Assembly (NCBI GenBank): GCA_028015205.1 | Contig: CM051514.1 | Location: 24,072,150-24,136,149, forward strand | Length of the DNA: 64,000 nucleotides | Direction of reading: 5' to 3' | Source: Mytilisepta virgata | Taxonomy: Eukaryota > Mollusca > Bivalvia > Mytilida > Mytilidae | In this document: positions 7,501 to 49,350 of the stretch, piece by piece | Position numbering within the stretch: the stretch's first letter is position 1 | Layout of the letters: each line of letters opens with the position of its first letter | Translations under genes and position numbers: made by a program | Notes under the pieces: generated by a model | The model's input: the letters and a program-made list of their open reading frames with translations, nothing else | What the model was told of the DNA's origin: nothing | The model's database searches: none

Positions 7501-10500
7501 TTAATTTATATTGTTAGATGTCAAAATATTTATATTGTTATATCAAGTGATGAAGTTGATATAAATTATTGTTATGTGTTGCGTCTTTTCATTTGTTTGT
7601 TAAAATCATGTAAATAAATGAATTACTTAATACTTTTTATTTGTTCATTATTCAATAACATTTGGATAAAAATGCTTTCAAGAAAACACTAAAGCCAAGG
7701 CCACTTTCTAGTCCTTGCAAATATAATTGTTTACAAACAGTAAAAAAATAAACTGATATATCTTTGATAAATCCAAAGCAGTTAATAAAAAATGGGGGAA
7801 AAAACTTGTAGCAGTAACATGGTGCTTACATGTTTTTACATGTAATTTTCAATGAAACGAGTGTACGCAAACTGTTTTGTAATTGGTATAGTCTGACAGC
7901 CTGAAAAACATCTATTGATGTGAACTCATTCTGTTCATCTTTCCAATCTATGTTGATTGTGAGTGTTGGATATCCCTTCAGATATTTCTGCATTTTGTCT
8001 TAAACAAAATTGTAACTGGTATGTAACCAGTTAAGAAATTATCAAAAAGATAGTAACTGGTATGTAGCCCTTTTATGAAAAAGCTTCAAAAAGATTTGTA
8101 ACTGGTTTGTAACCATTTTAAAAGAAAGCCTCAAAAAGATATGTAACTGGTATGTAACCCTTTTAAAAGAAAGCCTCAAAAAAAAGATTTGTAACTGGTA
8201 TGTAACCCTTTTATGAAAAAGCCTCAAAAAGATTGTAACTGGTATGTAACCAGTTTATGAAAAAGCATCAAAAAGATTTGTAACTGGTATGTAACCAGTT
8301 TATAAAATAAAGACTAAAATAAATTGTAACTGATATGTAACCATTTTAAAAGAAAGCCTCAAAAAGATTTGTAACTGGTATGTAATCCTTTTATGAAAAA
8401 GCCACAAAAAGATTTGTAACTGATATGTAACCCTTTTATGAAAAAGCCTCAAAAAGATTTGTAACTGATATGTAATCATTTTAAAAGAAAGCCTCAAAAA
8501 GATTTGTAACTGATATGTAACCAGTTGATAAAATAAAGACTAAAATAAATTGTAACTGATATGTAACCATTTTAAAAGAAAGCCACAAAAAGATTTGTAA
8601 CTGATATGTAACCCTTTTATGAAAAAGCCTCAAAAAGATTTGTAACTGATATGTAACCATTTTAAAAGAAAGCCTCAAAAAGATTTGTAACTGATATGTA
8701 ACCATTTTAAAAGAAAGCCACAAAAAGATTTGTAACTGGTATGTAACCCTTTTAAAAGAAAGCCTCAAAAAGATTTGTAACTGATATGTAACCATTTTAA
8801 AAGAAAGCCTCAAAAAGATTTGTAACTGATATGTAACCATTTTAAAAGAAAGCCTCAAAAAAGATATGTAACTGGTATGTAACCAGTTTATGAAAAAGCC
8901 TCAAAAAGATTTGTAACTGGTATGTAACCAGTTTATAAAATAAAGACTAAAATAAATTGTAACTGATATGTAACCATTTTAAAAGAAAGCCACAAAAAGA
9001 TTTGTAACTGATATGTAACCCTTTTATGAAAAAGCCTGAAAAAGATTTGTAACTGATATGTAACCATTTTAAAAGAAAGCCTCAAAAAGATTTGTAACTG
9101 ATATGTAACCATTTTAAAAGAAAGCCACAAAAAGATTTGTAACTGGTATGTAACCCTTTTATGAAAAAGCCTCAAAAAGATTTGTAACTAGTATGTAACC
9201 AGTTTATAAAATAAAGACTAAAATAAATTGTAACTGATATGTAACCATTTTAAAAGAAAGCCACAAAAAGATTTGTAACTGGTATGTAACCCTTTTAAAA
9301 GAAAGCCTCAAAAAGATTTGTAACTGATATGTAACCATTTTAAAAGAAAGCCTCAAAAAGATTTGTAACTGATATGTAACCATTTTAAAAGAAAGCCTCA
9401 AAAAAGATATGTAACTGTTATGTAACCAGTTTATGAAAAAGCCTCAAAAAGATTTGTAACTGGTATGTAACCAGTTTATAAAATAAAGACTAAAATAAAT
9501 TGTAACTGATATGTAACCATTTTAAAAGAAAGCCACAAAAAGATTTGTAACTGATATGTAACCCTTTTATGAAAAAGCCTCAAAAAGATTTGTAACTGAT
9601 ATGTAACCATTTTAAAAGAAAGCCTCAAAAAGATTTGTAACTGATATGTAACCAGTTGATAAAATAAAGACTAAAATAAATTGTAACTGATATGTAACCA
9701 TTTTAAAAGAAAACCACAAAAAGATTTGTAACTGGTATGTAACCCTTTTATGAAAAAGCCTCAAAAAGATTTGTAACTGATATGTAACCATTTTAAAAGA
9801 AAGCCTCAAAAAGATTTGTAACTGGTATGTAACCCTTTTAAAAGAAAGCCTCAAAAAGATTTGTAACTGGTATGTAACCAGTTTATAAAATAAAGACTAA
9901 AATAAATTGTAACTGATATGTAACCATTTTAAAAGAAAGCCACAAAAAGATTTGTAACTGGTATGTAACCCTTTTATGAAAAAGCCTCAAAAAGATTTGT
10001 AACTGATATGTAACCATTTTAAAAGAAAGCCTCAAAAAAGATATGTAACTGGTATGTAACCCTTTTATGAAAAAGCCTCAAAAAGATTTGTAACTGATAT
10101 GTAACCAGTTTATAAAATAAAGACTAAAATAAATTGTAACTGATATGTAACCATTTTAAAATAAAGCCACAAAAAGATTTGTAACTGATATGTAACCCTT
10201 TTATAAAAAAGCCTCAAAAAGATTTGTAACTGGTATGTAACCCTTTTAAAAGAAAGCCTCAAAAAGATTTGTAACTGGTATTTAACCCTTTTACGAAAAG
10301 TCTAAAAACGATTTGTAACTGGTATGTAACCAGTTTATAAAATAAAGCCTTCTATAATATATATACCTTTCAGAATTGGTTAAGTGTCACCATTTTGTAA
10401 CTGGTTACAAAACAAGTGTATTAAAATTGACTTGGACTAGTTTCTTGCCATATCTAGTAACACCCTTGACGATGTTAAATAAAAACCGATCTTTCACTGA

Positions 10501-14000: not shown

Positions 14001-17000
14001 TTCATTTAAATAATCCAAGAATGTAATTTGCTGTAATATTATTTTCTTGCTTTGTCTATTTAAGTCTAGTTAATTAAATATGAATATAGCTGCAAATCCA
14101 CCCTGAACTAATTTTCAATCTCTTTCATAGGCAATATTAGTTCGGAACAGATTTTCAAACCATAATTGTACACATCTATATGTGGTAATACACACATATC
14201 ATACAGAAAATATTTCTCTGAATCACATTACATAAATTTTGAAATTACTCTGAACATTTAACAATAACTAATTGTTATGAATTAGAGAAATACATGGGCG
14301 TGTATATGTCAAGATTAATCCAGCATAACCCTTATTTCAAATTTCATTGTTTACAGGAAAAGATCAGTCTCGAAAGGTTCAAACATTTTCTTCAGAGTCT
14401 ACCAGCCAGTACAGCCAAAGTTTAGAAAGTGAAGATAAATTGGAAAAGAAATTAATGACAACTAAGATTGAAAGCAGAATTCCTTCATTAAAACATAGCA
14501 CAAACAGTAAAGGAAATACATGTAATAACCAAATTGTAGAAAATCAGACTGTAGCATCTACGAGTTACCATAGCAACAGTTTTAGTACGTTAACTACACA
14601 AAACTTGCACCATGACTGGCAGCTACAAGTGCCGTACAACTATGGACATCACTTAAACAAGGAACGTTTACCAGATAAGAGCAATAATCCAATAAATTCC
14701 TGTTACCATGGTGATAATAGCAGTACTCAGCAGACACTTGTAATACCACCACCTCCCATGAGAGATCCATTTCCGGATTTTTCCAAGTTAAAGAAAAATT
14801 CGTTTGATTTTGCTAGAGTCCCAACTGCTAATGCCCCTTTTCCACCTAATTTTGATGCTAGAACAGACCCCCAAGATAATTCAAATGATAATGAAGTAAA
14901 ACATAACAGACTGGAAGAAAATGACAAAATGGTGTCAAGTTTAAACATACCAAATAGTTCAAGGTCAATGACTTCAGGAAAAGCAGTAGATCTAAATCAT
15001 CCAAAATATAAAAAAGTTTTAGAAAATGTTGGTTCCAAAAGTGAAAAAGTAATAGTGAAAGAATTTAAAAAGACTGGCTCTGTTCCTAAATTTATACCTC
15101 GACAGACTTTAATAAGAACAAAAACAGAATCTCAGAAAATGAACAAAAATAGTGATGAACTTGGAAAAGAAATTAGGAAAAATGCAGTAATGTTAAGAGA
15201 TACTCAAGGACCTGCTTATGTGCCAGAAGAGTTTAAAAAGCCTGAAGTGTTACCAACTGAAAAAGCTGTAGAGAAGACAGTCAGTGAAATCAGAAAAAGA
15301 TTATCAACAGTAAGTAAAAGTAAGATTGTTATTTGGAAAAATTGTTTGCTACTAGAAAAGTTATGCTGCATTTTTGTGTAAAATTAACCAAATTTTCCAC
15401 CATAAAACTCATGTTTTTAATTTGACAATATCCTCAAGGTGGTCTGGCAGGCACTCTGCTCAAAACAATGAAGAAGAAGAGGGTGGTGGAGTTATAGGTT
15501 TCAGTCCATCTGTCCGAAATAAGGTTGTCCGCAATTCCTCCTACATTACTTGCATGATTTTCATGAAACTTAATGGAGTATTAGATCGCTATATGGAGAT
15601 GTGCACTTTGTTAGGAATTTCTGTTTGGACAAGAATTGTAAAAGATACCACTGTTTGGACTTGGGCAGTTTTTAACAAAACTTCATTCCATGTGTTGTCG
15701 GCTTTTTTAAACAAAACTTTGTTCCATATGTTGTCTGCAACTCCTCCTACATTACTTGCACGATTCTAATTAAACTTTATGGAGTGTTAGATCACATTAT
15801 GGAGATGTGCAAATTGTCAGGATTTTCTGTTTGGGCGAGTAGTTTGAAAAATATGATGATTTGAACTTTGTGTAGAATTCAAAACAGACAAATTTCTGCG
15901 GGGGGTATTACTCCCTTTCAGGACAGTTCTAGTTTAAATTAGTATTTTTTGGGGTTTGAGTTTATAGTGTTCTGCATAAAAGTTTTGTTTGTGGAAAATT
16001 CTTTTTACTTGGGATTGGGGGGGGGGGGGGCAAATATTGATATGGTAATATCTACATTTCAGAGGAAATTGTGAATGTGCAAAATGTATTATTGTGGATT
16101 CATTTATTTTGGTGGATAGAGAAAAAATAGGCATTTCATTGGATATTTAAATTCATGGATTGCTGGCTTAGAAAAATATATAAAAAGTTGTTGAAATACT
16201 TAAATTTGTGGCTTGGCACATCAGTTATCATGAAAATACATTTGTACTGTGACAAAACATGCCAATCAGACTTCGATATTGTATAGTAAAGTACTGATTT
16301 TTTGAGCTTATTAAACAAAAGTCTAACAAACATTTGATTCTTTAAAAAAGCTTGTCATGAATTTAAGAAGATTAACAAAATCTTTAATTATTTACTTCAT
16401 TTACATCATATGTTAATCAGGTGTGAAATATATATTGACAAAATTGCAATCACTTGTCACCAAATACCTCGGGGCATATACATACATGTACATATTTTTA
16501 ATCCGATTACGATCAATAATTTCTGCTTTATTAAGATGTTTTTACTGTAATTTATGAGAAAGTCTGTATTGGTAAGGTCCAACTTGGATTAATATTTTTC
16601 TTGAATGTTTGAATAAAAAAAAACGGAAGTGAATTCCTCGACAATTTACACAGTCAGAATATTTTTAAAGAAAATTTTTTGAACGTTTATATGTTACCAA
16701 AGACAAAATTACATGAAACACTATATCTTCTGTGGATAGAGCTGACTCATCGTATGTCAGTATCCAATTACATGCTGTGAAAACGCAATTGTTCATAGGT
16801 ACATCAAATTTCCTTGGTTTCAAACCAGTGCATTTAAGCTAATGGAAAAATATTATTTTTCGTTGGATATTTAAATTCGTGGTTTACTGGGACCAACAAA
16901 AACCACAAAAATTGGTATACAATGAATACTAATGAATCCACATTAAATGTACTTACTGTATGTTAATTCATATCTAATAAACATTGATTCTTTCTCAAAA

Positions 17001-22305: not shown

Positions 22306-22479
22306 ACTAGAGGTACTGTTGTCACAGGAGTCCAGCATGCTGGACTGTTTTAGCACGCTAAAACTGATGTCTCCCCTTCCATACCCATAGTTTTTTTAAC
22401 ATTTTTTAGGGATCATCAAGGTGGCAAATTAAGAGCTATGGTACATAATACATGTAGTTACCTACAGATATGTGCTTCA

Positions 22480-23487
22480 ACAAGGAATGAATAAGGTAAT
22501 ATATAGTTTTGGGGAATGGATCTGAACCATTTTTAAGATAAATTAAGGTTTCTGGTCTTGAGGGGGTGGGATGACCCCAAGGGCTAAGATGTATATTGCA
22601 TTCAACTCGTCTTGTAACCATGAGTAGTACAATATATGGTTTAGGGGTGGGGATTCCAACCATTTTTAAGATAAAATAAGGTTTCTGATTTTGTGGGGGT
22701 GGGGATGACCCCAAAGGCTAAGATGTATATTGCATACAACTGGTCTTGTAACCATGAGTAGTACAATATATGGTTTAGGGGTGGGGATTCCAACCATTTT
22801 TAAGATAAAATAAGGTTTCTGATTTTGAGGGGGTGGGGATGATCCCCAGGGCTAAGATGTATAGTACATTCAACTTGTCTTGTAACCATGAGTAGTACAA
22901 TATATGGTTTAGGGGTGGGGATTCCAACCATTTTTAAGATAAAATAAGGTTTCTGATTTTGAGGGGGGTGGGGATGACCCCCAGGGCTAAGATGTATATT
23001 GCATTCAACTCGTCTTGTAACCATGAGTAGTACAATATATGGTTTAGGGGTGGGGATTCCAACCATTTTTAAGATAAAATAAGGTTTCTGATTTTGTGGG
23101 GGTGGGGATGACCCCCAAGGCTAAGATGTATATTGCATACAACTGGTCTTGTAACCATGAGTAGTACAATATATGGTTTATGGGTGGGGATTCCAACCAT
23201 TTTTAAGATAAAATAAGGTTTCTGATTTTGAGGGGGTGGGGATGACCCCCAGGGCTAAGATGCATATTGCATTCAACTCGTCTTGTAACCATGAGTAGTA
23301 CAATATATGGTTTAGGGGTGGGGATTTCAACCATTTTTAAGATAAATTAAGGTTTCTGGTCTTGAGCAGTAGGGGATGACCCCCGGGGCTCAGATGTATA
23401 CTGCATTCAACTTGTCTTGTTATCATGAATAATACCGTAAAATATATGGTTTAAGGGTGGGGATTTCAACCCTTTCCAAGATAATGT
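22480..23487 (+). repeat. Tandem core of C, first array, unit about 134 bp
   Basis: Seven to eight copies, with TTGTAACCATGAGTAGTACA recurring every 134-135 bases. Each copy has a GGGGTGGGGAT tract and a GATGACCCCC tract that can pair with each other. Confidence 0.9.
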
Positions 23488-23648
23488 AGGCTAGGGGGTG
23501 GGGACTGACCCCCAGGGACCCAAATGTGGTACTCTGCACTCCGCCTTGACCTGATGCATATACCCTCCAAATATCATGAGGCTAGCTCAAGAAACAAAAA
23601 AGTTATGTTCCGGACAAAAAATTTGATTAGAAGAGGAAGAAGAACACT
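23488..23648 (+). repeat. 3' module of C, first copy
   Basis: About 160 bases ending in TTCCGGACAAAAAATTTGAT and a purine tract. It is repeated nearly unchanged at 24667-24823, which shows that the inside of C was duplicated or that two C elements are fused. Confidence 0.8.
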
Positions 23649-24666
23649 ATTGGGTTGGGATCTCAATGGTTTTCAGAATATTTAGTATTTTATCATTTGA
23701 GGGGGGTGGGGCATGACCCCCCTCAGACCCCCCTATGGTACCAAATGATTTGTCTTATCATAAGGAGTAATAATATATATGGTTATAGGGTGGGGATCAC
23801 AATGGTTTTCAAAATATTAAGTATTTTATCATTTAAGGGGGTGGGGCATGACCCCCCCCCTCAGACCCCCTATGGTACCAAATGATTCGTCTTATCATAA
23901 GGAGTAATAATATATATGGTTATAGGGTGGGGATCTCAATGGTTTTCAGAATAATAAGTATTTTGTCATTTAAGGGGGTGGGGCATGACCCCCCCCCCCC
24001 TCAGACCCCCTATAGTACCAAATGATTCGTCTTATCATAAGGAGTAATAATATATATGGTTATAGGGTGGGGATCTCAATGGTTTTCAGAATAATAAGTA
24101 TTTTGTCATTTGAGGGGGTGGGGCATGACCCCCCCCCTCAGACCCCCTATGGTACCAAATGATTCGTCTTATCATAAAGAGTAATAATATATATGGTTAT
24201 TGGTTGGGGATCTCAATGGTTTTCAGAATATTTAGTATTTTATCATTTGAAGGGGTGGGGCATGACCCCCCTCAGACCCCCTATGGTACCAAATGATTCG
24301 TCTTATCATAAGGAGTAATAATATATATGGTTATAGGGTGGGGATCTCAATGGTTTTCAGAATATTTAGTATTTTATCATTTGAGGGGGTGGGGCATGAC
24401 CCCCCTCAGACCCCCCTATGGTACCAAATGATTCGTCTTATCATAAGGAGTAATAATATATATGGTTATAGGGTGGGGATCTCAATGGTTTTCAGAATAT
24501 TTAGTATTTTATCGTTTGAGGGGGTGGGGCATGACCCCCCTCAGACCCCCCTATGGTACCAAATGATTTGTCTTATCATAAGGAGTAATAATATATATGG
24601 TTATAGGGTGGGGATCACAATGGTTTTCAAAATATTAAGTATTTTGTTATTTTAGCCTACATTTTA
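23649..24666 (+). repeat. Tandem core of C, second array, unit about 136 bp
   Basis: About seven copies marked by CTTATCATAAGGAGTAATAA. Each has a GGGGGTGGGGCATGACCCCC hairpin-like block with variable C-run length. It is related to the first array by the same G-rich and C-rich pair. Confidence 0.9.
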
Positions 24667-24823
24667 CAGGCTAGAGGGTGGGGACTGACCCCCAGGGACC
24701 CAAATGTGGTACTCTGCACTCCGCCATGACCTGATGCATATACCTTCCAAATATCATGAGGCTAGCTCAAAAAACAAAAAAGTTATGTTCCGGACAAAAA
24801 ATTTGATTAGAAGAGGAAGAATA
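24667..24823 (+). repeat. 3' module of C, second copy
   Basis: Second copy of the 160-base module. Its purine tract is cut at AAGAATA by the ACTAG start of the first A element. Confidence 0.8.
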
Positions 24824-25323
24824 ACTAGAATTGCAATTGCGAGCAATAGCAGATGTCGCCCCTGGCAGCCATCTTGAAAATGGCGGCCATTTTGAAAAAA
24901 AAAGTACTGATTGCACACCTTCACATAGTGATCTTACTTTCTGCCAAGTTTCATTCAATTCTATCCATGTCAAGTTTTTCGCCATTTTAACATCATTTTT
25001 CAAAATGGCCGCCAAACGTCTCCAACCGATCGCGATTTTTTTTCATCAGTTTCTTCTTCTAATTGTACTTTACAAACAAGCGAAGTTTAATGAAATTCTA
25101 TGGTACAGTTTTTGAGATATAAACGTTTTAAATTTTCGGAGGGTACCGACCTTTGAATGGTGGCCATCTTGAAAATGGCGGCCATTTCGAAAAAAAAAGT
25201 ATTGATTGCACACCTTCACATAGTGATCTTACTTTCTGCCAAGTTTCATTCAATTCTATCCAGGCATCTCCGAGAACTAAGCCGGACAAAAATCATTGGA
25301 AAGAAAGAATAATAATAATAATA
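24824..25323 (+). mobile_element. A1, 5' part; 3' end not found
   Basis: Starts ACTAGAATTGCAATTGCGAG and then AGATGTCGCCCC, as all A copies do. It has one full and one partial 300-bp core with paired ATGGCGGCCAT motifs, then CCGGACAAAAATCATTGG, GAAA and AAT tracts. A2 begins in its AAT tract. No separate 3' hairpin remains for it. Confidence 0.8.
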
Positions 25324-26084
25324 ACTAGAATTGCAATTGCGAGCAATAGCAGATGTCGCCCCTGGCAGCCATCTAGAAAATGGCGGCCATTTCGAAAAAA
25401 AAGTATTGATTGCACACCTTCACATAGTGATCTTACTTTCTGCCAAGTTTCATTCAATTCTATCCATGTTAAGTTTTTCGCCATTTTAACATCATTTTTC
25501 AAAATGGCCGCCAAACGTCTCCAACCGATCGCCATTTTTTTTCATCAGTTTGTTCTTCTAATTGTACTTTACAAACATACGAAGTTTAATGAAATTCTAT
25601 GGTACAGTTTTCGAGATATAAACGTGTTAAATTACCGATCTATGAATGGCGGCCATCTTGAAAATGGCGGCCATTTTGAAAAAAAAAGTACTGATTGCAC
25701 ACCTTCACATAGTGATCTTACTTTCTGCCAAGTTTCATTCAATTCTATCCATGTTAAGTTTTTCGCCATTTTAACATCATTTTTCAAAATGGCCGCCAAA
25801 CGTCTCCAACCGATCGCCATTTTTTTTCATGAGTTTGTTCTTCTAATTGTACTTTACAAACATACGAAGTTTAATGAAATTCTATGGTACAGTTTTTGAG
25901 ATATAAACGTTTTAAATTTTCGGAGGGTACCGATCTTTGAATGGCGGCCATCTTGAAAATGGCGGCCATTTGGGAAAAAAAAGTATTGATTGCACACCTT
26001 CACATAGTGATCTTACTTTCTGCCAAGTTTCATTCAATTCTATCCAGGCATCTCCGAGAACTAAGCCGGACAAAAATCATTGGA

Positions 26085-26124
<40 letters not shown>

Positions 26125-26192
26125 ATAATAATAATAACAAAGAAACGGAAGAATAACAATATGTCGTCCCGTGACTACGTTCGGGGCGACAT
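25324..26192 (+). mobile_element. A2, complete
   Basis: A-type start, cores, a long (GAAA)n tract, (AAT)n, and the A-type 3' hairpin at 26161-26192 (stem of ATGTCG and CGACAT). Confidence 0.85.
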
Positions 26193-26196
26193 AATA

Positions 26197-26758
26197 ACTA
26201 GAATTGCAATTGCGAGCAATAGCAGATGTCGCCCCTGGCAGCCATCTTGAAAATGGCGGCCATTTTGAAAAAAAAAGTACTGATTGCACACCTTCACATA
26301 GTGATCTTACTTTCTGCCAAGTTTCATTCAATTCTATCGATGTTAAGTTTTTCGCCATTTTAACATCATTTTTCAAAATGGCCGCCAAACGTCTCCAACC
26401 GATCGCCATTTTTTTTCATGAGTTTGTTCTTCTAATTGTACTTTACAAACATACGAAGTTTAATGAAATTCTATGGTACAGTTTTTGAGATATAAACGTT
26501 TTAAATTTTCGGAGGGTACCGATCTTTGAATGGCGGCCATCTTGAAAATGGCGGCCATTTGGGAAAAAAAAGTATTGATTGCACACCTTCACATAGTGAT
26601 CTTACTTTCTGCCAAGTTTCATTCAATTCTATCCAGGCATCTCCGAGAACTAAGCCGGACAAAAATCATTGGAAAGAAAGAAAGAAAGAAAGAATAATAA
26701 TAACAAAGAAACGGAAGAATAACAATATGTCGTCCCGTGACTACGTTCGGGGCGACAT
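26197..26758 (+). mobile_element. A3, complete
   Basis: A-type start and 3' hairpin (26727-26758). It belongs to the subtype with ATCGATGTTAAG, shared with A13. Confidence 0.85.
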
Positions 26759-26964
26759 AACTAGAATTGCAATTGCGAGCAATAGCAGATGTCGCCCCTG
26801 GCAGCCATCTTGAAAATGGCGGCCATTTCGAAAAAAAAAGTATTGATTGCACACCTTCACATAGTGATCTTACTTTCTGCCAAGTTTCATTCAATTCTAT
26901 CCAGGCATCTCCGAGAACTAAGCCGGACAAAAATCATTGGAAAGAAAGAATAATAATAATAATA

Positions 26965-27694
26965 ACTAGGTATGATTGTGATCGCAAGCGAGTCACAAGA
27001 TGTCTCCCAAACCCCCCTTGCCAATATCTAGAGCTTATCAGTAACCCCCTAAATTCCCTTTTGCTCTATTCACCTACAAAATTTCAGAATCCTACCCACC
27101 TAGGTTACAGAGATATCGCAATGTCCTATATAATGACCTTTTCCTGTTTCCATGGAAACAGCGGCCATTTTGATTTTTTTTTTAAGCCCTTTGCAATCGC
27201 CATCATTTAAAACCCCTAAATATCAATTTTCATTGAAATCGAAGCACTTCGAAAGAATTTCGAATTTTGGGCCCGAAAAATCACATTTTCGTAAATAACA
27301 CGAAAACCGTAAATATCGCTTCAAATTTTTTTTTCGTATAATTAAAGAGCACCTTTTGCTCTATTCACCTACAAAATTTCAGAATCCTACCCACCTAGGT
27401 TACTGACATAAAGCAATGTCTCCTATATAATGACCTTTTTCTGTTTCCACGGAAACGGCGGCCATTTTGAAAATTTTAAAAGTCGTTTGCAAAACTTCAG
27501 GTCACCCTTAACATATTCCCAAAGTTTCATATTGATTGGACATTGCATCTTTGAGAAACGTCGCGGACAACATTGAACGGAAAGAAAAAGGAAAGAAGAA
27601 GAAGAAGAAGAAGAAGAAGAAGAAGAAGAAGAAGAATAATAATAAGAAACCGGACAAAAACAATATGTCTCCCAAAACTTTGTTTGGGAGACAT
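26965..27694 (+). mobile_element. B1, complete long form
   Basis: B-type start ACTAGGTATGATTGTGATCG, 5' hairpin GTGATCGC/GCGAGTCAC and AAGATGTCTCCC, then cores with AATGACCTTTT. A (GAA)n tract, ACCGGACAAAAA and the B-type 3' hairpin (27665-27694, stem ATGTCTCCC and GGGAGACAT) follow. Confidence 0.85.
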
Positions 27695-27707
27695 AATAAT
27701 AATAATA

Positions 27708-28183
27708 ACTAGAATTGCAATTGCGAGCAATAGCAGATGTCGCCCCTGGCAGCCATCTTGAAAATGGCGGCCATTTCGAAAAAAAAGTATTGATTGCACA
27801 CCTTCACATAGTGATCTTACTTTCTGCCAAGTTTCATTCAATTCTATCCATGTTAAGTTTTTCGCCATTTTAACATCATTTTTCAAAATGGCCGCCAAAC
27901 GTCTCCAACCGATCGCCATTTTTTTTCATCAGTTTGTTCTTCTAATTGTACTTTACAAACCTACGAAGTTTAATGAAATTCTATGGTACAGTTTTTGAGA
28001 TATAAACGTTTTAAATTTTCGGAGGGTACCGATCTTTGAATGGCGGCCATCTTGAAAATGGCGGCCATTTCGAAAAAAAAAGTATTGATTGCACATCTTC
28101 ACATAGTGATCTTACTTTGTGCCAAGTTTCATTCAATTCTATCCAGGCATCTCCGAGAACTAAGCCGGACAAAAATCATTGGA

Positions 28184-28215
<32 letters not shown>

Positions 28216-28280
28216 ATAATAATAACAAAGAAACGGAAGAATAACAATATGTCGTCCCGTGACTACGTTCGGGGCGACAT
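27708..28280 (+). mobile_element. A5, complete, inside A4
   Basis: A-type start in an AAT tract; 3' hairpin at 28249-28280. Confidence 0.85.
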
Positions 28281-28543
28281 AATAATAACAAAGAAACGGA
28301 AGAATAACAATATGTCGTCCCGTGACTACGTTCGGGGCGACATAACTAGAATTGCAATTGCGAGCAATAGCAGATGTCGCCCCTGGCAGCCATCTTGAAA
28401 ATGGCGGCCATTTCGAAAAAAAAAGTATTGATTGCACACCTTCACATAGTGATCTTACTTTCTGCCAAGTTTCATTCAATTCTATCCAGGCATCTCCGAG
28501 AACTAAGCCGGACAAAAATCATTGGAAAGAAAGAATAATAATA

Positions 28544-29103
28544 ACTAGAATTGCAATTGCGAGCAATAGCAGATGTCGCCCCTGGCAGCCATCTTGAAAA
28601 TGGCGGCCATTTCGAAAAAAAAGTATTGATTGCACACCTTCACATAGTGATCTTACTTTCTGCCAAGTTTCATTCAATTCTATCCATGTTAAGTTTTTCG
28701 CCATTTTAACATCATTTTTCAAAATGGCCGCCAAACGTCTCCAACCGATCGCCATTTTTTTTCATCAGTTTGTTCTTCTAATTGTACTTTACAAACCTAC
28801 GAAGTTTAATGAAATTCTATGGTACAGTTTTTGAGATATAAACGTTTTAAATTTTCGGAGGGTACCGATCTTTGAATGGCGGCCATCTTGAAAATGGCGG
28901 CCATTTCGAAAAAAAAAGTATTGATTGCACATCTTCACATAGTGATCTTACTTTCTGCCAAGTTTCATTCAATTCTATCCAGGCATCTCCGAGAACTAAG
29001 CCGGACAAAAATCATTGGAAAGAAAGAAAGAAAGAATAATAATAATAACAAAGAAACGGAAGAATAACAATATGTCGTCCCGTGACTACGTTCGGGGCGA
29101 CAT
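28544..29103 (+). mobile_element. A7, complete
   Basis: A-type start and 3' hairpin (29072-29103). Confidence 0.85.
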
Positions 29104-29110
29104 AATAATA

Positions 29111-29871
29111 ACTAGAATTGCAATTGCGAGCAATAGCAGATGTCGCCCCTGGTAGCCATCTAGAAAATGGCGGCCATTTCGAAAAAAAAGTATTGATTGC
29201 ACACCTTCACATAGTGATCTTACTTTCTGCCAAGTTTCATTCAATTCTATCCATGTTAAGTTTTTCGCCATTTTAACATCATTTTTCAAAATGGCCGCCA
29301 AACGTCTCCAACCGATCGCCATTTTTTTTCATCAGTTTGTTCTTCTAATTGTACTTTACAAACCTACGAAGTTTAATGAAATTCTATGGTACAGTTTTTG
29401 AGATATAAACGTGTTAAATTACCGATCTATGAATGGCGGCCATCTTGAAAATGGCGGCCATTTTGAAAAAAAAAGTATTGATTGCACACCTTCACATAGT
29501 GATCTTACTTTCTGCCAAGTTTCATTCAATTCTATCGATGTTAAGTTTTTCGCCATTTTAACATCATTTTTCAAAATGGCCGTCAAACGTCTCCAACCGA
29601 TCGCCATTTTTTTTCATCAGTTTGTTCTTCTAATTGTACTTTACAAACCTACGAAGTTTAATGAAATTCTATGGTACAGTTTTTGAGATATAAACGTTTT
29701 AAATTTTCGGAGGGTACCGATCTTTGAATGGCGGCCATCTTGAAAATGGCGGCCATTTCGAAAAAAAAAGTATTGATTGCACATCTTCACATAGTGATCT
29801 TACTTTCTGCCAAGTTTCATTCAATTCTATCCAGGCATCTCCGAGAACTAAGCCGGACAAAAATCATTGGA

Positions 29872-29911
<40 letters not shown>

Positions 29912-29979
29912 ATAATAATAATAACAAAGAAACGGAAGAATAACAATATGTCGTCCCGTGACTACGTTCGGGGCGACAT
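29111..29979 (+). mobile_element. A8, complete; same length as A11
   Basis: 869 bp with the subtype variants CTGGTAGCC and TCTAGAAA and two core units; hairpin 29948-29979. A11 shares these variants and the exact length. Confidence 0.85.
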
Positions 29980-29983
29980 AATA

Positions 29984-30345
29984 ACTAGGTATGATTGTGA
30001 TCGCCAGCGAGTCACAAGATGTCTCCCAAACAAACCCCCATTGCCACTATCTAGAGCTTATCAGAAACCCCCTAAATTCAAATTATTGAAATGTCCTATA
30101 TAATGACCTTTGAAACGGCGGCCATTTTGAAAATTTTAAAAGTCGTTTGCAAAACTTCAGGTCACCCTTAACATATTCCCAAAGTTTCATATTGATTGGA
30201 CATTGCATCTTTGAGAAACGTCGCGGACAACATTGAACGGAAAGAAAAAGGAAAGAAGAAGAAGAAGAAGAAGAAGAAGAAGAAGAATAATAATAAGAAA
30301 CCGGACAAAAACAATATGTCTCCCAAAACTTTGTTTGGGAGACAT
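29984..30345 (+). mobile_element. B2, short form
   Basis: B-type start with GATCGCCAGCG and AACAAACCCCC variants, about 360 bp because most of the core is missing; hairpin 30316-30345. Confidence 0.85.
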
Positions 30346-30542
30346 AACTAGAATTGCAATTGCGAGCAATAGCAGATGTCGCCCCTGGCAGCCATCTTGA
30401 AAATGGCGGCCATTTTGAAAAAAAAAGTTTCGATTGCACACCTTCACATAGTGATCTAACTTTCTGCCAAGTTTCATTCAATTCTATCACGGCATCTCCG
30501 AGAACTAAGCCGGACAAAAATCATTGGAAAGAAAGAATAATA

Positions 30543-31079
30543 ACTAGAATTGCAATTGCGAGCAATAGCAGATGTCGCCCCTGGCAGCCATCTAGAAAAT
30601 GGCGGCCATTTCGAAAAAAAAAGTATTGATTGCACACCTTCACATAGTGATCTTACTTTCTGCCAAGTTTCATTCAATTCTATCCATGTTAAGTTTTTCG
30701 CCATTTTAACATCATTTTTCAAAATGGCCGCCAAACGTCTCCAACCGATCGCCATTTTTTTTCATCAGTTTGTTCTTCTAATTGTACTTTACAAACATAC
30801 GAAGTTTAATGAAATTCTATGGTACAGTTTTTGAGATATAAACGTGTTAAATTACCGATCTATGAATGGCGGCCATCTTGAAAATGGCGGCCATTTTGAA
30901 AAAAAAAGTACTGATTGCACACCTTCACATAGTGATCTTACTTTCTGCCAAGTTTCATTCAATTCTATCCAGGCATCTCCGAGAACTAAGCCGGACAAAA
31001 ATCATTGGAAAGAAAGAATAATAACAAAGAAACGGAAGAATAACAATATGTCGTCCCGTGACTACGTTCGGGGCGACAT
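30543..31079 (+). mobile_element. A10, complete; same length as A12
   Basis: 537 bp, A-type start and hairpin 31048-31079. Confidence 0.85.
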
Positions 31080-31083
31080 AATA

Positions 31084-31820
31084 ACTAGGTATGATTGTGA
31101 TCGCAAGCGAGTCACAAGATGTCTCCCAAACCCCCATTGCCACTATCTAGAGCTTATCAGTAACCCCCTAAATTCCCTTTTGCTCTATTCACCTACAAAA
31201 TTTCAGAATCCTACCCACCTAGGTTACAGAGATATCGCAATGTCCTATATAATGACCTTTTCCTGTTTCCATGGAAACAGCGGCCATTTTGATTTTTTTT
31301 AAGCCCTTTGCAATCGGCATCATTTAAAACCCCTAAATATCAATTTTCATTGAAATCGAAGCACTTCGAAAGAATTTCGAATTTTGGGCCCGAAAAATCA
31401 CATTTTCGTAAATAACGCGAAAACCGTAAATATCGCTTCAAATTTTTTTTTCGTATAATTAAAGAGCACCTTTTGCTCTATTCACCTACAAAATTTCAGA
31501 ATCCTACCCACCTAGGTTACTGACATAAAGCAATGTCTCCTATATAATGACCTTTTTCTGTTTCCACGGAAACGGCAGCCATTTTGAAAATTTTAAAAGT
31601 CGTTTGCAAAACTTCAGGTCACCCTTAACATATTCCCAAAGTTTCATATTGATTGGACATTGCATCTTTGAGAAACGTCGCGGACAACATTGAACGGAAA
31701 GAAAAAGGAAAGAAGAAGAAGAAGAAGAAGAAGAAGAAGAAGAAGAAGAAGAAGAAGAAGAATAATAATAAGAAACCGGACAAAAACAATATGTCTCCCA
31801 AAACTTTGTTTGGGAGACAT
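31084..31820 (+). mobile_element. B3, complete long form
   Basis: B-type start, long core, (GAA)n, hairpin 31791-31820. Confidence 0.85.
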
Positions 31821-31821
31821 A

Positions 31822-33251
31822 ACTAGGTATGATTGTGATCGCAAGCGAGTCACAAGATGTCTCCCAAACCCCCATTGCCACTATCTAGAGCTTATCAGTA
31901 ACCCCCTAAATTCCCTTTTGCTCTATTCACCTACAAAATTTCAGAATCCTACCCACCTAGGTTACAGAGATATCGCAATGTCCTATATAATGACCTTTTC
32001 CTGTTTCCATGGAAACAGCGGCCATTTTGATTTTTTTTAAGCCCTTTGCAATCGCCATCATTTAAAACCCCTAAATATCAATTTTCATTGAAATCGAAGC
32101 ACTTCGAAAGAATTTCGAATTTTGGGCCCGAAAAATCACATTTTCGTAAATAACGCGAAAACCGTAAATATCGCTTCAAATTTTTTTTTCGTATAATTAA
32201 AGAGCACCTTTTGCTCTATTCACCTACAAAATTTCAGAATCCTACCCACCTAGGTTACTGACATAAAGCAATGTCTCCTATATAATGACCTTTTTCTGTT
32301 TCCACGGAAACGGCGGCCATTTTGAAAATTTTAAAAGTCGTTTGCAAAACTTCAGGTCACCCTTAACATATTCCCAAAGTTTCATATTGATTGGACATTG
32401 CATCTTTGAGAAACGTCGCGGACAACATTGAACGGAAAGAAAAAGGAAAGAAGAAGAAGAAGAAGAAGAAGAAGAAGAAGAAGAATAATAACTAGAATTG
32501 CAATTGCGAGCAATAGCAGATGTCGCCCCTGGTAGCCATCTAGAAAATGGCGGCCATTTCGAAAAAAAAGTATTGATTGCACACCTTCACATAGTGATCT
32601 TACTTTCTGCCAAGTTTCATTCAATTCTATCCATGTTAAGTTTTTCGCCATTTTAACATCATTTTTCAAAATGGCCGCCAAACGTCTCCAACCGATCGCC
32701 ATTTTTTTTCATCAGTTTGTTCTTCTAATTGTACTTTACAAACCTACGAAGTTTAATGAAATTCTATGGTACAGTTTTTGAGATATAAACGTGTTAAATT
32801 ACCGATCTATGAATGGCGGCCATCTTGAAAATGGCGGCCATTTTGAAAAAAAAAGTATTGATTGCACACCTTCACATAGTGATCTTACTTTCTGCCAAGT
32901 TTCATTCAATTCTATCGATGTTAAGTTTTTCGCCATTTTAACATCATTTTTCAAAATGGCCGTCAAACGTCTCCAACCGATCGCCATTTTTTTTCATCAG
33001 TTTGTTCTTCTAATTGTACTTTACAAACCTACGAAGTTTAATGAAATTCTATGGTACAGTTTTTGAGATATAAACGTTTTAAATTTTCGGAGGGTACCGA
33101 TCTTTGAATGGCGGCCATCTTGAAAATGGCGGCCATTTCGAAAAAAAAAGTATTGATTGCACATCTTCACATAGTGATCTTACTTTCTGCCAAGTTTCAT
33201 TCAATTCTATCCAGGCATCTCCGAGAACTAAGCCGGACAAAAATCATTGGA

Positions 33252-33291
<40 letters not shown>

Positions 33292-33414
33292 ATAATAATA
33301 ATAACAAAGAAACGGAAGAATAACAATATGTCGTCCCGTGACTACGTTCGGGGCGACATAATAAGAAACCGGACAAAAACAATATGTCTCCCAAAACTTT
33401 TGTTTGGGAGACAT
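31822..33414 (+). mobile_element. B4, split by A11
   Basis: B-type start at 31822. Its GAA/AAT tract is cut at 32491 by A11. The B-type end resumes after 33359 and ends in the hairpin 33384-33414, which has one extra T. Confidence 0.85.
32491..33359 (+). mobile_element. A11, complete, inside B4
   Basis: 869 bp, subtype as A8; hairpin 33328-33359. Flanks differ from those of A8 right at both element ends. Confidence 0.85.
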
Positions 33415-33427
33415 AATAATAATAATA

Positions 33428-34342
33428 ACTAGGTATGATTGTGATCGCCAGCGAGTCACAAGATGTCTCCCAAACAAACCCCCATTGCCACTATCTAGAG
33501 CTTATCAGAAACCCCCTAAATTCAAATTATTGCAATGTCCTATATAATGACCTTTGAAACGGCAGCCATTTTGAAAATTTTAAAAGTCGTTTGCAAAACT
33601 TCAGGTCACCCTTAACATATTCCCAAAGTTTCATATTGATTGGACATTGCATCTTTGAGAAACGTCGCGGACAACATTGAACGGAAAGAAAAAGGAAAGA
33701 AGAAGAAGAAGAAGAAGAAGAAGAAGAAGAAGAAGAAGAAGAAGAACTAGAATTGCAATTGCGAGCAATAGCAGATGTCGCCCCTGGCAGCCATCTAGAA
33801 AATGGCGGCCATTTCGAAAAAAAAAGTATTGATTGCACACCTTCACATAGTGATCTTACTTTCTGCCAAGTTTCATTCAATTCTATCCATGTTAAGTTTT
33901 TCGCCATTTTAACATCATTTTTCAAAATGGCCGCCAAACGTCTCCAACCGATCGCCATTTTTTTTCATCAGTTTGTTCTTCTAATTGTACTTTACAAACA
34001 TACGAAGTTTAATGAAATTCTATGGTACAGTTTTTGAGATATAAACGTGTTAAATTACCGATCTATGAATGGCGGCCATCTTGAAAATGGCGGCCATTTT
34101 GAAAAAAAAAGTACTGATTGCACACCTTCACATAGTGATCTTACTTTCTGCCAAGTTTCATTCAATTCTATCCAGGCATCTCCGAGAACTAAGCCGGACA
34201 AAAATCATTGGAAAGAAAGAATAATAACAAAGAAACGGAAGAATAACAATATGTCGTCCCGTGACTACGTTCGGGGCGACATAATAATAATAAGAAACCG
34301 GACAAAAACAATATGTCTCCCAAAACTTTGTTTGGGAGACAT
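33428..34342 (+). mobile_element. B5, short form, split by A12
   Basis: B-type start with the short-form variants. The (GAA)n tract runs straight into the A12 start at 33746. The B-type end resumes after 34282 and ends in the hairpin 34313-34342. Confidence 0.85.
33746..34282 (+). mobile_element. A12, complete, inside B5
   Basis: 537 bp like A10; inserted at the GAA/AAT border; hairpin 34251-34282. Confidence 0.85.
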
Positions 34343-34343
34343 A

Positions 34344-35428
34344 ACTAGGTATGATTGTGATCGCAAGCGAGTCACAAGATGTCTCCCAAACCCCCATTGC
34401 CACTATCTAGAGCTTATCAGTAACCCCCTAAATTCCCTTTTGCTCTATTCACCTACAAAATTTCAGAATCCTACCCACCTAGGTTACAGAGATATCGCAA
34501 TGTCCTATATAATGACCTTTTCCTGTTTCCATGGAAACAGCGGCCATTTTGATTTTTTTTAAGCCCTTTGCAATCGCCATCATTTAAAACCCCTAAATAT
34601 CAATTTTCATTGAAATCGAAGCACTTCGAAAGAATTTCGAATTTTGGGCCCGAAAAATCACATTTTCGTAAATAACGCGAAAACCGTAAATATCGCTTCA
34701 AATTTTTTTTTCGTATAATTAAAGAGCACCTTTTGCTCTATTCACCTACAAAATTTCAGAATCCTACCCACCTAGGTTACTGACATAAAGCAATGTCTCC
34801 TATATAATGACCTTTTTCTGTTTCCACGGAAACGGCGGCCATTTTGAAAATTTTAAAAGTCGTTTGCAAAACTTCAGGTCACCCTTAACATATTCCCAAA
34901 GTTTCATATTGATTGGACATTGCATCTTTGAGAAACGTCGCGGACAACATTGAACGGAAAGAAAAAGGAAAGAAGAAGAAGAAGAAGAAGAAGAAGAAGA
35001 AGAATAATAACTAGGTATGATTGTGATCGCCAGCGAGTCACAAGATGTCTCCCAAACAAACCCCCATTGCCACTATCTAGAGCTTATCAGAAACCCCCTA
35101 AATTCAAATTATTGCAATGTCCTATATAATGACCTTTGAAACGGCGGCCATTTTGAAAATTTTAAAAGTCGTTTGCAAAACTTCAGGTCACCCTTAACAT
35201 ATTCCCAAAGTTTCATATTGATTGGACATTGCATCTTTGAGAAACGTCGCGGACAACATTGAACGGAAAGAAAAAGGAAAGAAGAAGAAGAAGAAGAAGA
35301 AGAAGAAGAAGAAGAATAATAATAAGAAACCGGACAAAAACAATATGTCTCCCAAAACTTTGTTTGGGAGACATAATAAGAAACCGGACAAAAACAATAT
35401 GTCTCCCAAAACTTTGTTTGGGAGACAT
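34344..35428 (+). mobile_element. B6, split by B7
   Basis: Long-form B cut at 35010. Its 3' end (hairpin 35399-35428) directly follows that of B7. Confidence 0.85.
35010..35374 (+). mobile_element. B7, short form, inside B6
   Basis: B-type start with short-form variants; hairpin 35345-35374. Confidence 0.85.
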
Positions 35429-35498
35429 AATAATAATAATAACAAAGAAACGGAAGAATAACAATATGTCGTCCCGTGACTACGTTCGGGGCGACATA

Positions 35499-36794
35499 AC
35501 TAGGTATGATTGTGATCGCAAGCGAGTCACAAGATGTCTCCCAAACCCCCATTGCCACTATCTAGAGCTTATCAGTAACCCCCTAAATTCCCTTTTGCTC
35601 TATTCACCTACAAAATTTCAGAATCCTACCCACCTAGGTTACAGAGATATCGCAATGTCCTATATAATGACCTTTTCCTGTTTCCATGGAAACAGCGGCC
35701 ATTTTGATTTTTTTTAAGCCCTTTGCAATCGCCATCATTTAAAACCCCTAAATATCAATTTTCATTGAAATCGAAGCACTTCGAAAGAATTTCGAATTTT
35801 GGGCCCGAAAAATCACATTTTCGTAAATAACGCGAAAACCGTAAATATCGCTTCAAATTTTTTTTTCGTATAATTAAAGAGCACCTTTTGCTCTATTCAC
35901 CTACAAAATTTCAGAATCCTACCCACCTAGGTTACTGACATAAAGCAATGTCTCCTATATAATGACCTTTTTCTGTTTCCACGGAAACGGCGGCCATTTT
36001 GAAAATTTTAAAAGTCGTTTGCAAAACTTCAGGTCACCCTTAACATATTCCCAAAGTTTCATATTGATTGGACATTGCATCTTTGAGAAACGTCGCGGAC
36101 AACATTGAACGGAAAGAAAAAGGAAAGAAGAAGAAGAAGAAGAAGAAGAAGAAGAAGAAGAATAATAACTAGAATTGCAATTGCGAGCAATAGCAGATGT
36201 CGCCCCTGGCAGCCATCTTGAAAATGGCGGCCATTTTGAAAAAAAAAGTACTGATTGCACACCTTCACATAGTGATCTTACTTTCTGCCAAGTTTCATTC
36301 AATTCTATCGATGTTAAGTTTTTCGCCATTTTAACATCATTTTTCAAAATGGCCGCCAAACGTCTCCAACCGATCGCCATTTTTTTTCATGAGTTTGTTC
36401 TTCTAATTGTACTTTACAAACATACGAAGTTTAATGAAATTCTATGGTACAGTTTTTGAGATATAAACGTTTTAAATTTTCGGAGGGTACCGATCTTTGA
36501 ATGGCGGCCATCTTGAAAATGGCGGCCATTTTGGAAAAAAAAGTATTGATTGCACACCTTCACATAGTGATCTTACTTTCTGCCAAGTTTCATTCAATTC
36601 TATCCAGGCATCTCCGAGAACTAAGCCGGACAAAAATCATTGGAAAGAAAGAAAGAAAGAATAATAATAATAATAATAATAATAACAAAGAAACGGAAGA
36701 ATAACAATATGTCGTCCCGTGACTACGTTCGGGGCGACATAATAAGAAACCGGACAAAAACAATATGTCTCCCAAAACTTTGTTTGGGAGACAT
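35499..36794 (+). mobile_element. B8, split by A13
   Basis: Long-form B cut at 36168 by A13. The B-type end resumes after 36740, hairpin 36765-36794. Confidence 0.85.
36168..36740 (+). mobile_element. A13, complete, inside B8
   Basis: A-type start and hairpin (36709-36740); subtype as A3, with an expanded AAT tract. Confidence 0.85.
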
Positions 36795-36798
36795 AATA

Positions 36799-37163
36799 AC
36801 TAGGTATGATTGTGATCGCCAGCGAGTCACAAGATGTCTCCCAAACAAACCCCCATTGCCACTATCTAGAGCTTATCAGAAACCCCCTAAATTCAAATTA
36901 TTGCAATGTCCTATATAATGACCTTTGAAACGGCGGCCATTTTGAAAATTTTAAAAGTCGTTTGCAAAACTTCAGGTCACCCTTAACATATTCCCAAAGT
37001 TTCATATTGATTGGACATTGCATCTTTGAGAAACGTCGCGGACAACATTGAACGGAAAGAAAAAGGAAAGAAGAAGAAGAAGAAGAAGAAGAAGAAGAAG
37101 AAGAATAATAATAAGAAACCGGACAAAAACAATATGTCTCCCAAAACTTTGTTTGGGAGACAT
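36799..37163 (+). mobile_element. B9, short form
   Basis: B-type start with short-form variants; hairpin 37134-37163. Confidence 0.85.
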
Positions 37164-37275
37164 AATAATAACAAAGAAACGGAAGAATAACAATATGTCG
37201 TCCCGTGACTACGTTCGGGGCGACATAATAATAATCACTAAAACAATATGTCTCCCTTCGAGAAGGGGAGACATA

Positions 37276-38184
37276 ACAAGAGGCTCAGTTGGCTGAGCCT
37301 GTATCGCACACCTTGCAGTCACAAACTTTTGATTTGATTTGACAGACTAGATCGATTTCTGGAAACTTTGTAAATGATCTTCTATAAATGCTTCATACCA
37401 AGTATAAGTTCATTGGCCAAATGGTTTCAGAGAAGTTTTAAATTTCGACCAATCAGAACATATAAATGTTTCTGGCGGCCATTTTGTTTCACGGACTAGA
37501 AAGATTTATGCCAAGTTTGTACATTTAGCTTTATGATTTCAGGGAAGTTTTAAGTTTCGACCAATCAGAACATATAAATGTTTCTGGTGGCCATTTTGTT
37601 TCACAGACTAGAAAGATTTATGCCAAGTTTGTACATTTAGCTTTATGATTTCAGGGAAGTTTTAAGTTTCGACCAATCAGAACATGTAAATGCTCATGAT
37701 GGCCATTTTCTTTCACGGACCAAGATGATTTATGCAAACTTTGTAAAAGGCCTTCCATAGAATTAGATGCTCCATATCAAAAATCAGTTCATTTGGCTTT
37801 ATGGTTTCAGAGGAGAAGTTTTAAATTTCGACCAATCAGAACATGTAAATGCTCATAGCGACAATTTTGTTTCACAGACCAGGATGATTTATGCAAACTT
37901 TGTAAAGGACCTTCCATAGAAGCTACAGGCCAAGTTTCAGTTTAATAGGTCCAGGGCTTTCAGAGGAGAAGACGAAAATGTAAAAGTTTACAGACAGACG
38001 GACCAGGATGATTTATGCAAACTTTGTAAAGGACCTTCCATAGAAGCTTCAGGCCAAGTTTCAGTTTAATAGGTCCAGGGGTTTCAGAGGAGAAGACGAA
38101 AATGTAAAAGTTTACAGATAGACAGACAGACGACGGACGCCAAGTGATGACAAAGCTCACATTGCCTTTGTTAAGGTGAGCTAA
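37276..38184 (+). mobile_element. Hairpin-ended element, family E, copy 1
   Basis: Starts ACAAGAGGCTCAG with the perfect 5' hairpin GGCTCAG-ttg-GCTGAGCC, then CACACCTT. Cores with CGACCAATCAGAACAT and GGCCATTTT follow, then a GACAGACAGACGACGGAC tract. It ends in a 3' hairpin at 38154-38182 (AGCTCAC and GTGAGCT). It abuts element C with one base between. Confidence 0.75.
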
Positions 38185-48429: not shown

Positions 48430-49350
48430 AAAACCAATCATGTCCTCCTTTCTGGCAGCAGAAAAAATTTTCCTTATCTATAAATATGTCTTCCTTTCCT
48501 GTAACAGTAAAATTTACCTTGCCTTCATTCTTAGTAAAATTTCTCTTGCCTATAAAATCCTGTCCTGCATTCTAGTAGCAGTAAAATTTGCCTTGCCTAC
48601 CAACTCTGTCCTCCATTTTAGTAGTAGTAAAATTTCTCTTGCCCACCAACTCCATCCCCCATTCTAGTAGCAGAAAAATTCTGCTTGCCCACCTAATCTG
48701 TCATCCATTCTAGTAGCAGTAAAAATTCCCTTGCCTAACAAATCTGTCCTCCTTACTAATAGTAGTAAAATTTCCCTTGCCTACCAACTCTGTCCTCCAT
48801 TCTAGTAGCAGAAAAATTACCCTTGCCAACCTAATCTGTCATCCATTCTAGTAGCAGTAAAATTTCCCTTGCCTAACAAATATGTCCCCTTCAGTCTAGT
48901 AGCAGCAAAATTACCCTTCTCTAACATTTTAGTAGCTGTAAAATTTCCCTTGCCTAACAAATCTGTCCTCCTTACTAGTAGCAGTAAAATTTCTCTTGAC
49001 TACAAAACCTGTCCTCCATTCTAGAAGCAGTAAAATTTGTCTCTGCTATTTTCCAAATTTTTCCTTTCTAGTAGATTAAAATTTCCCTTACCTACCCAAT
49101 GATGCTGCCCTTTCTAGTAGAGTAAAATTTCTTTCACCTGCCTATAGATGCTGCCCTTTCTAGTAGAGTAAAATTTCCCTCACCTGCCCAAAGATGCTGC
49201 CCTTTCTAGTAGAGTAAAATTTCTTTCACCTGCCCAAAGATTCTGTCCTTTCTAGTAAAGTAAAATTTCCCTCACCTATCCAAAGATGCTGCACTCTAGT
49301 AGAGTAAAATTTCCCTCACCTATCCAAAGATGCTCCCCTTTCTAGTAGCA
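48430..49350. repeat. Minisatellite, unit about 45-47 bp
   Basis: About 20 diverged copies marked by TCTAGTAGCAGTAAAATTTC and CCTTGCC. From 49060 a subtype with TTTCTAGTAGAGTAAAATTT and AAAGATGCTGCC takes over. Confidence 0.85.

Follow-up and report, generated by a model that had tools for sequence, protein, structure and literature searches.

A stretch of 64 000 nucleotides from the mytilid bivalve Mytilisepta virgata (contig CM051514.1, positions 24,072,150–24,136,149; the whole stretch is called the window below) carries, at its positions 22306–37275, an array that appears to be made of about 22 small Helitron-like copies, inserted successively into the microsatellite tracts of earlier copies and all in one direction. 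The copies fall into three families, A, B and C, each with a start motif at one end and a hairpin, beside an AAT/GAA tract, at the other. Nested Helitrons and tract-targeting Helitrons are each known; the depth and regularity at this locus look unusual. The elements themselves are ordinary in kind and it is the self-made, direction-locking target that is the unusual part.

The start and hairpin motifs of the three families were scanned for on both strands of the whole window. Starts numbered 13 for A, 9 for B and 1 for C, and hairpins 12, 9 and 1, respectively; all were on the plus strand between 22307 and 37274, and no exact match was found elsewhere in the window on either strand. Eight of the B hairpins are identical and the remaining one (33384–33414) has an extra T in its loop. 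The original prediction had treated starts and hairpins as opening and closing brackets; the order of the 45 symbols from left to right is identical to its string, letter for letter. Its claim that closings are always of the type last opened was borne out (all 22 closings can be paired by type without crossing, and a single A start is left over), as was that of a single orientation (23/23 starts on one strand). The order was compared with shuffled ones: the observed 21 of 21 inner closings were reached in 0 of 2000 full shuffles and in 0 of 2000 that permuted only the types and kept the open/close skeleton (best values 19 and 20, respectively). Host tails that resume after two or three consecutive closings are present at 28249/28312 and 35345/35399/35466 as described, and there are eight resumed tails in total. 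The depth of six levels has to be reduced: all 10 valid parses give five closed levels counting C, and six includes the unclosed A. The identity of that A is ambiguous (10 of the 13 A starts qualify), and the 12 A hairpins, being one exact motif, have no power to discriminate between the candidates.

The hairpin had been taken for the 3' end. From the plan of ends of Helitron2 and HINE elements, the hairpin is probably the 5' end, with the elements running on the minus strand and the tract on their 5' side. The following map follows one of the ten valid parses (the parse used).

22306–37275, minus strand: C, outermost element, spanning the whole array (motif scan; asymmetric terminal inverted repeat, ATIR, of 13 bp; 5' hairpin with folding z of −5.5)
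22525–24652, minus strand: central tandem repeats of C (134-bp array at 22525–23484, related 135-bp array at 23648–24652)
24824–25323, minus strand: A24825, without a hairpin of its own in the parse used (or else the outermost A, closing at 37227)
25324–26193, minus strand: A-long, uninterrupted
26197–26759, minus strand: A-mid, uninterrupted
26760–28344, minus strand: A26761, A-short host with two guests, adjoining the previous unit without spacer
26965–27695, minus strand: B-long, guest of A26761, (AAT)3 tract
27708–28281, minus strand: A-mid, guest of A26761
28345–37227, minus strand: A28346, A-short host with six guests in the parse used
28544–29104, minus strand: A-mid guest
29111–29980, minus strand: A29112, A-long guest, body identical to that of A32492 (0 of 763 positions differ)
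29984–30346, minus strand: B-short guest, (AAT)3 tract
30347–35498, minus strand: A30348, A-short host with five guests, 5 private changes in 184 positions
30543–31080, minus strand: A30544, A-mid guest, body identical to that of A33747 (0 of 469 differ)
31084–31821, minus strand: B-long guest, (AAT)3 tract
31822–33415, minus strand: B31823, B-long host of A32492, (AAT)3 with the guest left out
32491–33360, minus strand: A32492, A-long guest in B31823
33428–34343, minus strand: B33429, B-short host of A33747, guest at the GAA/AAT border (tract 0+3)
33746–34283, minus strand: A33747, A-mid guest in B33429
34344–35429, minus strand: B34345, B-long host of B35011, body identical to those of B31823 and B35500
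35010–35375, minus strand: B35011, B-short guest in B34345, body identical to that of B36800, (AAT)3 tract
35499–36795, minus strand: B35500, B-long host of A36169
36168–36741, minus strand: A36169, A-mid guest in B35500, (AAT)8 tract
36799–37164, minus strand: B36800, B-short guest of the outer A, (AAT)3 tract

The own sequence of C amounts to about 2.6 kb in parses that close A24825 and to 3.07 kb, A24825 included, where it is unclosed. Each of the two C repeat arrays is followed by a near-identical segment of about 150 bp ending in GATTAGAAGAGGAAGAA (22525–24825). Aligned over 1.1 kb, each together with what follows it, the two arrays share about 68% of positions, and C is possibly an old composite in its own right. 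The three A-short copies (26760–28344, 28345–37227 and 30347–35498) are, in the parse used, the only A or B hosts to carry more than one guest; with the guests left out, their AAT tracts measure 9–11 units, versus 2–8 in guest-free A copies.

Insertion makes a prediction about the interrupted tracts, and the B copies bear directly on it. With the unit taken as ACTAG...GACATA, removal of the guests leaves (AAT)3 in all nine B copies, the four hosts as well as the five guest-free ones. This is an empty-site test repeated inside one locus, and it is stronger proof than the bracket order. The tract halves are 2+1 in three of the hosts and 0+3 in B33429. When the tails of the four B hosts were re-paired, 6 of the 24 pairings kept (AAT)3 throughout, namely those permuting only the three 2+1 hosts; the control is therefore informative for B33429. 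Under a unit 3 nt shorter (CTAG...GACA), the tract before the tail is (AAT)3 in the guest-free B copies (5/5) and (AAT)4 in the B hosts (4/4; Fisher P = 0.008), and the combination of this short unit with plain A^T insertion was rejected because it leaves (AAT)4 in the hosts. The test applies to B hosts only, tract length being variable in A hosts.

The flanks of the longer unit are nearly uniform, with ATA to the left of 21 of the 22 A and B starts and AGA at the remaining one. With guests excluded, the 22 closed copies contain 3730 AA/TT steps, 89 of which are ATAATA steps; a log10 P of −34 calculated for these sites was not used, since the sites are non-independent and one insert lies at AGA^ATA. 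The insertion site of C reads AAACA^ACAAG, which corresponds to T^T on the minus strand. A 3-bp duplication of TAA was rejected, as the flanks of C read CAA and TAA. Among the 13 neighbouring pairs, 6 adjoin without spacer under the longer unit and the other 7 joints retain 3–12 nt of host tract. The proposal that copies went into the AAT/GAA tracts of older copies thus stands as regards complete elements, location in the tracts of other copies, common direction and resumption of the host tail; the part according to which inner copies are generally younger is only partly supported (see below).

The bodies of the copies fall into length classes of 184, 469–479 and 763 bp for A, and of 271 and 628–630 bp for B. 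Five sets are identical throughout: A29112 and A32492 (763 bp), A30544 and A33747 (469 bp), B31823, B34345 and B35500 (628 bp), B35011 and B36800 (271 bp), and A26761 and A28346 (184 bp). Both neighbours differ in three of the five (A29112/A32492, A30544/A33747 and B35011/B36800). The longest self-match at 100% identity, 881 bp, covers one element plus its AAT flank, and no inverted (minus-strand) self-match was detected at E ≤ 1e-20. Unit length, restoration of the empty site in four B hosts, single direction and identity ending at element limits are all read directly from the array.

The ends were analysed on one copy of each family for the ATIRs. On the minus strand, every family starts with TATGTC followed by a hairpin whose folding z is −3.5 in A, −4.9 in B and −5.5 in C (0 of 200 shuffles as good); a T-rich microsatellite, the body, an inverted-repeat copy and then CTAG(T) follow. 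The ATIRs measure 10 bp in A and 13 bp in both B and C; they differ in sequence between families and match end to end within each. Under the TATGTC limit, the 5' ATIR is offset by 1 nt from the 5' end; the 3' ATIR lies 29 nt (A), 35 nt (B) and 61 nt (C) from the 3' end. All 23 starts carry CTAG, which would suit the CTRR 3' end of canonical Helitrons, but one more T follows it under the preferred limits. The bodies of A and C contain tandem repeats (285 bp and 134/135 bp, respectively); none was found in that of B. Assignment to canonical Helitron1 was rejected, the ends beginning with TATGTC and lacking a 5' TC. By this anatomy, A, B and C resemble non-autonomous, HINE-like families of Helitron2/Helentron type. 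In the window outside the array, a search for perfect 9-bp stems with an arm that recurs upstream found no other element of the same build (interrupted stems such as that of A would be missed). Neither the A nor the B motif had a match in a collection of viral contigs, and the A motif had none in a collection of genome contigs that may omit records of the window's own genome. A protein search with open reading frames (ORFs) spanning the joints gave one distant match (P0124, 43% identity over 38% of the query), which aligned to the A body and not to a joint; the ORF running from an A tail into a B start had no match, and Rfam and tRNA scans found nothing.

Precedents exist for most parts of this picture. 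Coates et al. (2010), going by the title alone, reportedly described a lepidopteran Helitron-like superfamily disrupting (GAAA)n microsatellites. For the papers cited by accession, the comparisons that follow cover the part of each text that was available. Elements of the Helitron2 group have ATIRs of 8–15 bp, the 5' one in a hairpin 0–2 bp from the 5' end and the 3' one about 20–30 bp from the 3' end, and Helitron-1N1_CRe uses a T-rich target without duplication (PMC3627910). A, B and C share with this group the short ATIRs, the 5' hairpin on the 5' ATIR and the 5' T. Downstream of the 3' ATIR a 3' hairpin is predicted in all three, but it folds weakly; the distance of the 3' ATIR from the end agrees with PMC3627910 in A (29 nt) and exceeds it in B and C (35 and 61 nt). 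The placement is made from the ends. In mite HINEs, the 3' ATIR lies about 38–60 bp from the end (PMC4067079). HINE/DINE-1 elements, which have been reported from oyster, are also alike in their subterminal inverted repeats (subTIRs), their 5'-side microsatellite and, as regards A and C, their central tandem repeats; their preference for T^T without target duplication agrees with the restored (AAT)3 tracts and the flank of C (PMC4067079, PMC7492417). Their order of parts (subTIR plus inverted repeat, microsatellite, central repeats, 3' subTIR, palindrome) fits the minus strand of A, B and C, except that no repeats were found in B and the palindromes are weak. The locus departs from them in using the microsatellite of the elements themselves as target, and in the one-way nesting of its copies. 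Its 3' ends carry CTAG, unlike HINE/DINE-1 and like proto-Helentron-Pi, for which a CTAG 3' end is reported in the DINE-1 paper (PMC4067079).

As to nesting, the closest likeness in a bivalve is with oyster loci in which complete or truncated Helitrons lie inside others (PMC12628747); those are shuffled, truncated and arrayed in different directions, whereas the present nest is ordered, runs in one direction and is built of complete copies. Helitrons inside Helitrons are known from maize and Fusarium, where nested read-through yields extra termini (PMC3288121, PMC5148889), with one or a few nestings per locus versus 22 units in five levels here. McGurk and Barbash, as cited in PMC12628747, found that insertion-site preference builds clusters of the same element and dimers of transposable elements; these are dimers or tandem copies, whereas here guests lie inside host tracts and the host tail resumes. 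MuTAnT is likewise a DNA transposon with a microsatellite target (TA), but belongs to another superfamily (Mutator-like), and the available part of its description does not state that the target is borne by the element (PMC4486113). No multi-level, one-direction Helitron nest was found in the literature searched, which left out most subscription journals.

Taken together, these results favour, with a probability of roughly 0.84, a nest of small non-autonomous rolling-circle elements that were repeatedly inserted into the microsatellite carried just inside each 5' end. C would have been inserted first. Copies of A and B, presumably mobilized in trans by a RepHel/Helentron protein encoded elsewhere, would then have joined at T^T steps on the TTA/TTC strand of the C tract and afterwards in the tracts of resident A and B copies, up to five closed levels. 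Each guest would supply a fresh tract, so that the locus keeps renewing its own target, and the array elements would spare other DNA as they grow. The unclosed A may have arisen by read-through, which would give it two 3' ends but a single 5' end, as has been proposed for nested maize Helitrons (PMC3288121), or may have lost its tail. In this scheme we infer the enzyme, the rolling-circle step, the exact T^T cut point and a preference for the tract itself over this particular place. TT steps of an AAT or GAA tract exist on the complementary (TTA/TTC) strand only; because T^T lies on the T-rich strand alone and the sense of the tract is fixed in its host, guest and host would share one direction. 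A T^T target rule would thereby account for the presence of 23/23 starts on one strand with no further assumption.

A number of observations weigh against this reading. The bracket order had been offered as evidence of nesting; the match itself holds for all closings, its evidential weight much less so. Among the 22 closed elements, 14 have no interruption and therefore match trivially. Once they are removed, a reduced word of 8 opens and 7 closes remains between the two ends of C. Of its 2450 possible type labellings, 175 (7.1%) give a full match, and 22% of random orders of opens and closes are balanced. Since most closed copies match trivially and so many labellings also fit, the order by itself is modest evidence, consistent with nesting and not proof of it. 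Outside the array, the window contains 30 ATAATAA sites, two (AAT)3 and no (AAT)4, and none of the 30 sites holds an A or B, which leaves a general site preference unsupported. Alternative cut points within an AAT tract give the same sequence by rotation, so that only the flank of C decides for T^T over a 3-bp TAA duplication. The predicted 3' hairpins are hardly better than chance (67, 20 and 14 of 200 shuffled sequences reach the same folding for A, B and C), and no RepHel gene was found among the 10 of 30 window ORFs (110–355 amino acids) that were scanned. In two of the five identical sets the surroundings are partly alike: an A hairpin adjoins A26761 and A28346 on their left, and a B hairpin adjoins B31823 and B34345. 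Self-matches holding three or more element limits also occur (5 of 381): one of 921 bp (96.2%; 32814–33734 with 36207–37105), one of 771 bp (94.7%; 28339–29108 with 30341–31084), one of 719 bp (97.2%; 26191–26903 with 28538–29253) and two short ones (233 and 223 bp). The 921-bp match joins another of 1112 bp (98.1%; 31816–32916 with 35493–36604), so that a B host with its A guest, followed by a further B, is present twice, at 31.8 and 35.5 kb. In the two occurrences, the B hosts are identical and the A guests differ at 8 of 479 positions and in length class; this favours two separate, parallel A insertions at the same kind of site, duplication followed by exchange being a possible alternative.

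The expectation that inner copies are younger fared unevenly. Private substitutions are most numerous in A24825 (7 of 479) and A30348 (5 of 184), both outer or hosting copies, as expected. They are zero in the four guests inside B hosts, but three of these guests are matched by an identical copy, so that no private change could appear in them. On the other side, the parse used places A30348 as a guest in A28346, a host with no private change and thus less diverged than its guest, and the four B hosts have none either. If A24825 and not A28346 closes at 37227, then the outermost A also leads in the number of private changes. With so recent a burst, this test does not decide the age order.

Other processes could have generated part of the pattern, and since they may act alongside insertion the probabilities attached to the readings need not sum to one. 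Unequal exchange or template switching between AAT/GAA tracts could have shuffled segments, with few real insertions needed. The joints sit in such tracts, where exchange leaves no scar, several copies are identical, the doubled B–A–B pattern would fit, and one A has no tail. However, exchange between tracts separates bodies from tails. In a simple model that starts from one A and one B inside C and copies random tract-to-tract segments of at most nine symbols, a median of 15 (tandem), 17 (pasted) and 16 (with deletions) symbols remained unmatched, versus 1 observed, and one or none was left in only 2, 0 and 1 of 300 runs, respectively. The complementary tract halves in the B hosts and the arrest of the longest perfect self-match at element limits also speak against recombination, which we consider unlikely as the main source of the array; it may occasionally have acted on top of insertion, and the unclosed A is possibly such an event.

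Head-to-tail multimers, produced when the 3' terminator is read through during rolling-circle replication and later decorated by a few insertions, are an even less likely origin. Published tandem Helitrons have been attributed to terminator bypass (PMC4067079), A26761 and A28346 adjoin with identical bodies, and the six zero-spacer joints are what such concatemers would show; yet four of the six link different types or length classes, the other seven retain host tract, and the eight resumed host tails are left unaccounted for. An error of assembly, finally, has to be considered in so repeat-rich a stretch, in which copies are near-identical and one A tail is missing, as after a collapse. This seems very improbable, as a misjoin of identical copies would usually break the matching, whereas all 22 closings and the four B tract sums hold.

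If repeated insertion into resident tracts is right, the nest yields a relative order of insertions without dating them, and serves as a natural assay of target choice in Helitron2/Helentron elements, with several empty sites in one locus. The uniform direction receives a simple reason, the target dinucleotide being confined to one strand. Should A and B copies elsewhere obey the same rule, this would amount to a safe harbour that a eukaryotic rolling-circle element makes for itself, and HINEs could in this way build up long satellite-like blocks in molluscs. A broader proposal is speculative and, in our view, rather doubtful: that such families carry their own landing pad, T^T joining sending new copies into sibling copies in one direction and with the target renewed; that self-nesting is a dispersal-limiting strategy that spares the host genome; and that nests record the order of transposition and occur wherever this type of element and tract coincide.

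The remainder of the window contains other repeats and some reading frames. Immediately to the right of C, an array of 112–124-bp repeats (37421–38160) precedes a GACAGACAGACG tract and may represent the terminus of another element. Two adjoining ORFs of 344 and 131 amino acids (14347–15769) have no Pfam match at E 0.01. A single-exon gene for a ZC3H10-like CCCH zinc-finger protein lies on the minus strand at 53865–54932, open over 355 codons; its product is 95% identical to one assembly protein, 59% to a protein of Pinctada imbricata and 58% to one of Mizuhopecten yessoensis (among the best 120 of 420 matches), which suggests a bivalve source. Minisatellites are found on both sides of the array, with a unit of 45 bp at 8010–10350 (about 52 copies) and of 46 bp at 3288–3923, 48533–48918 and 49063–49348.

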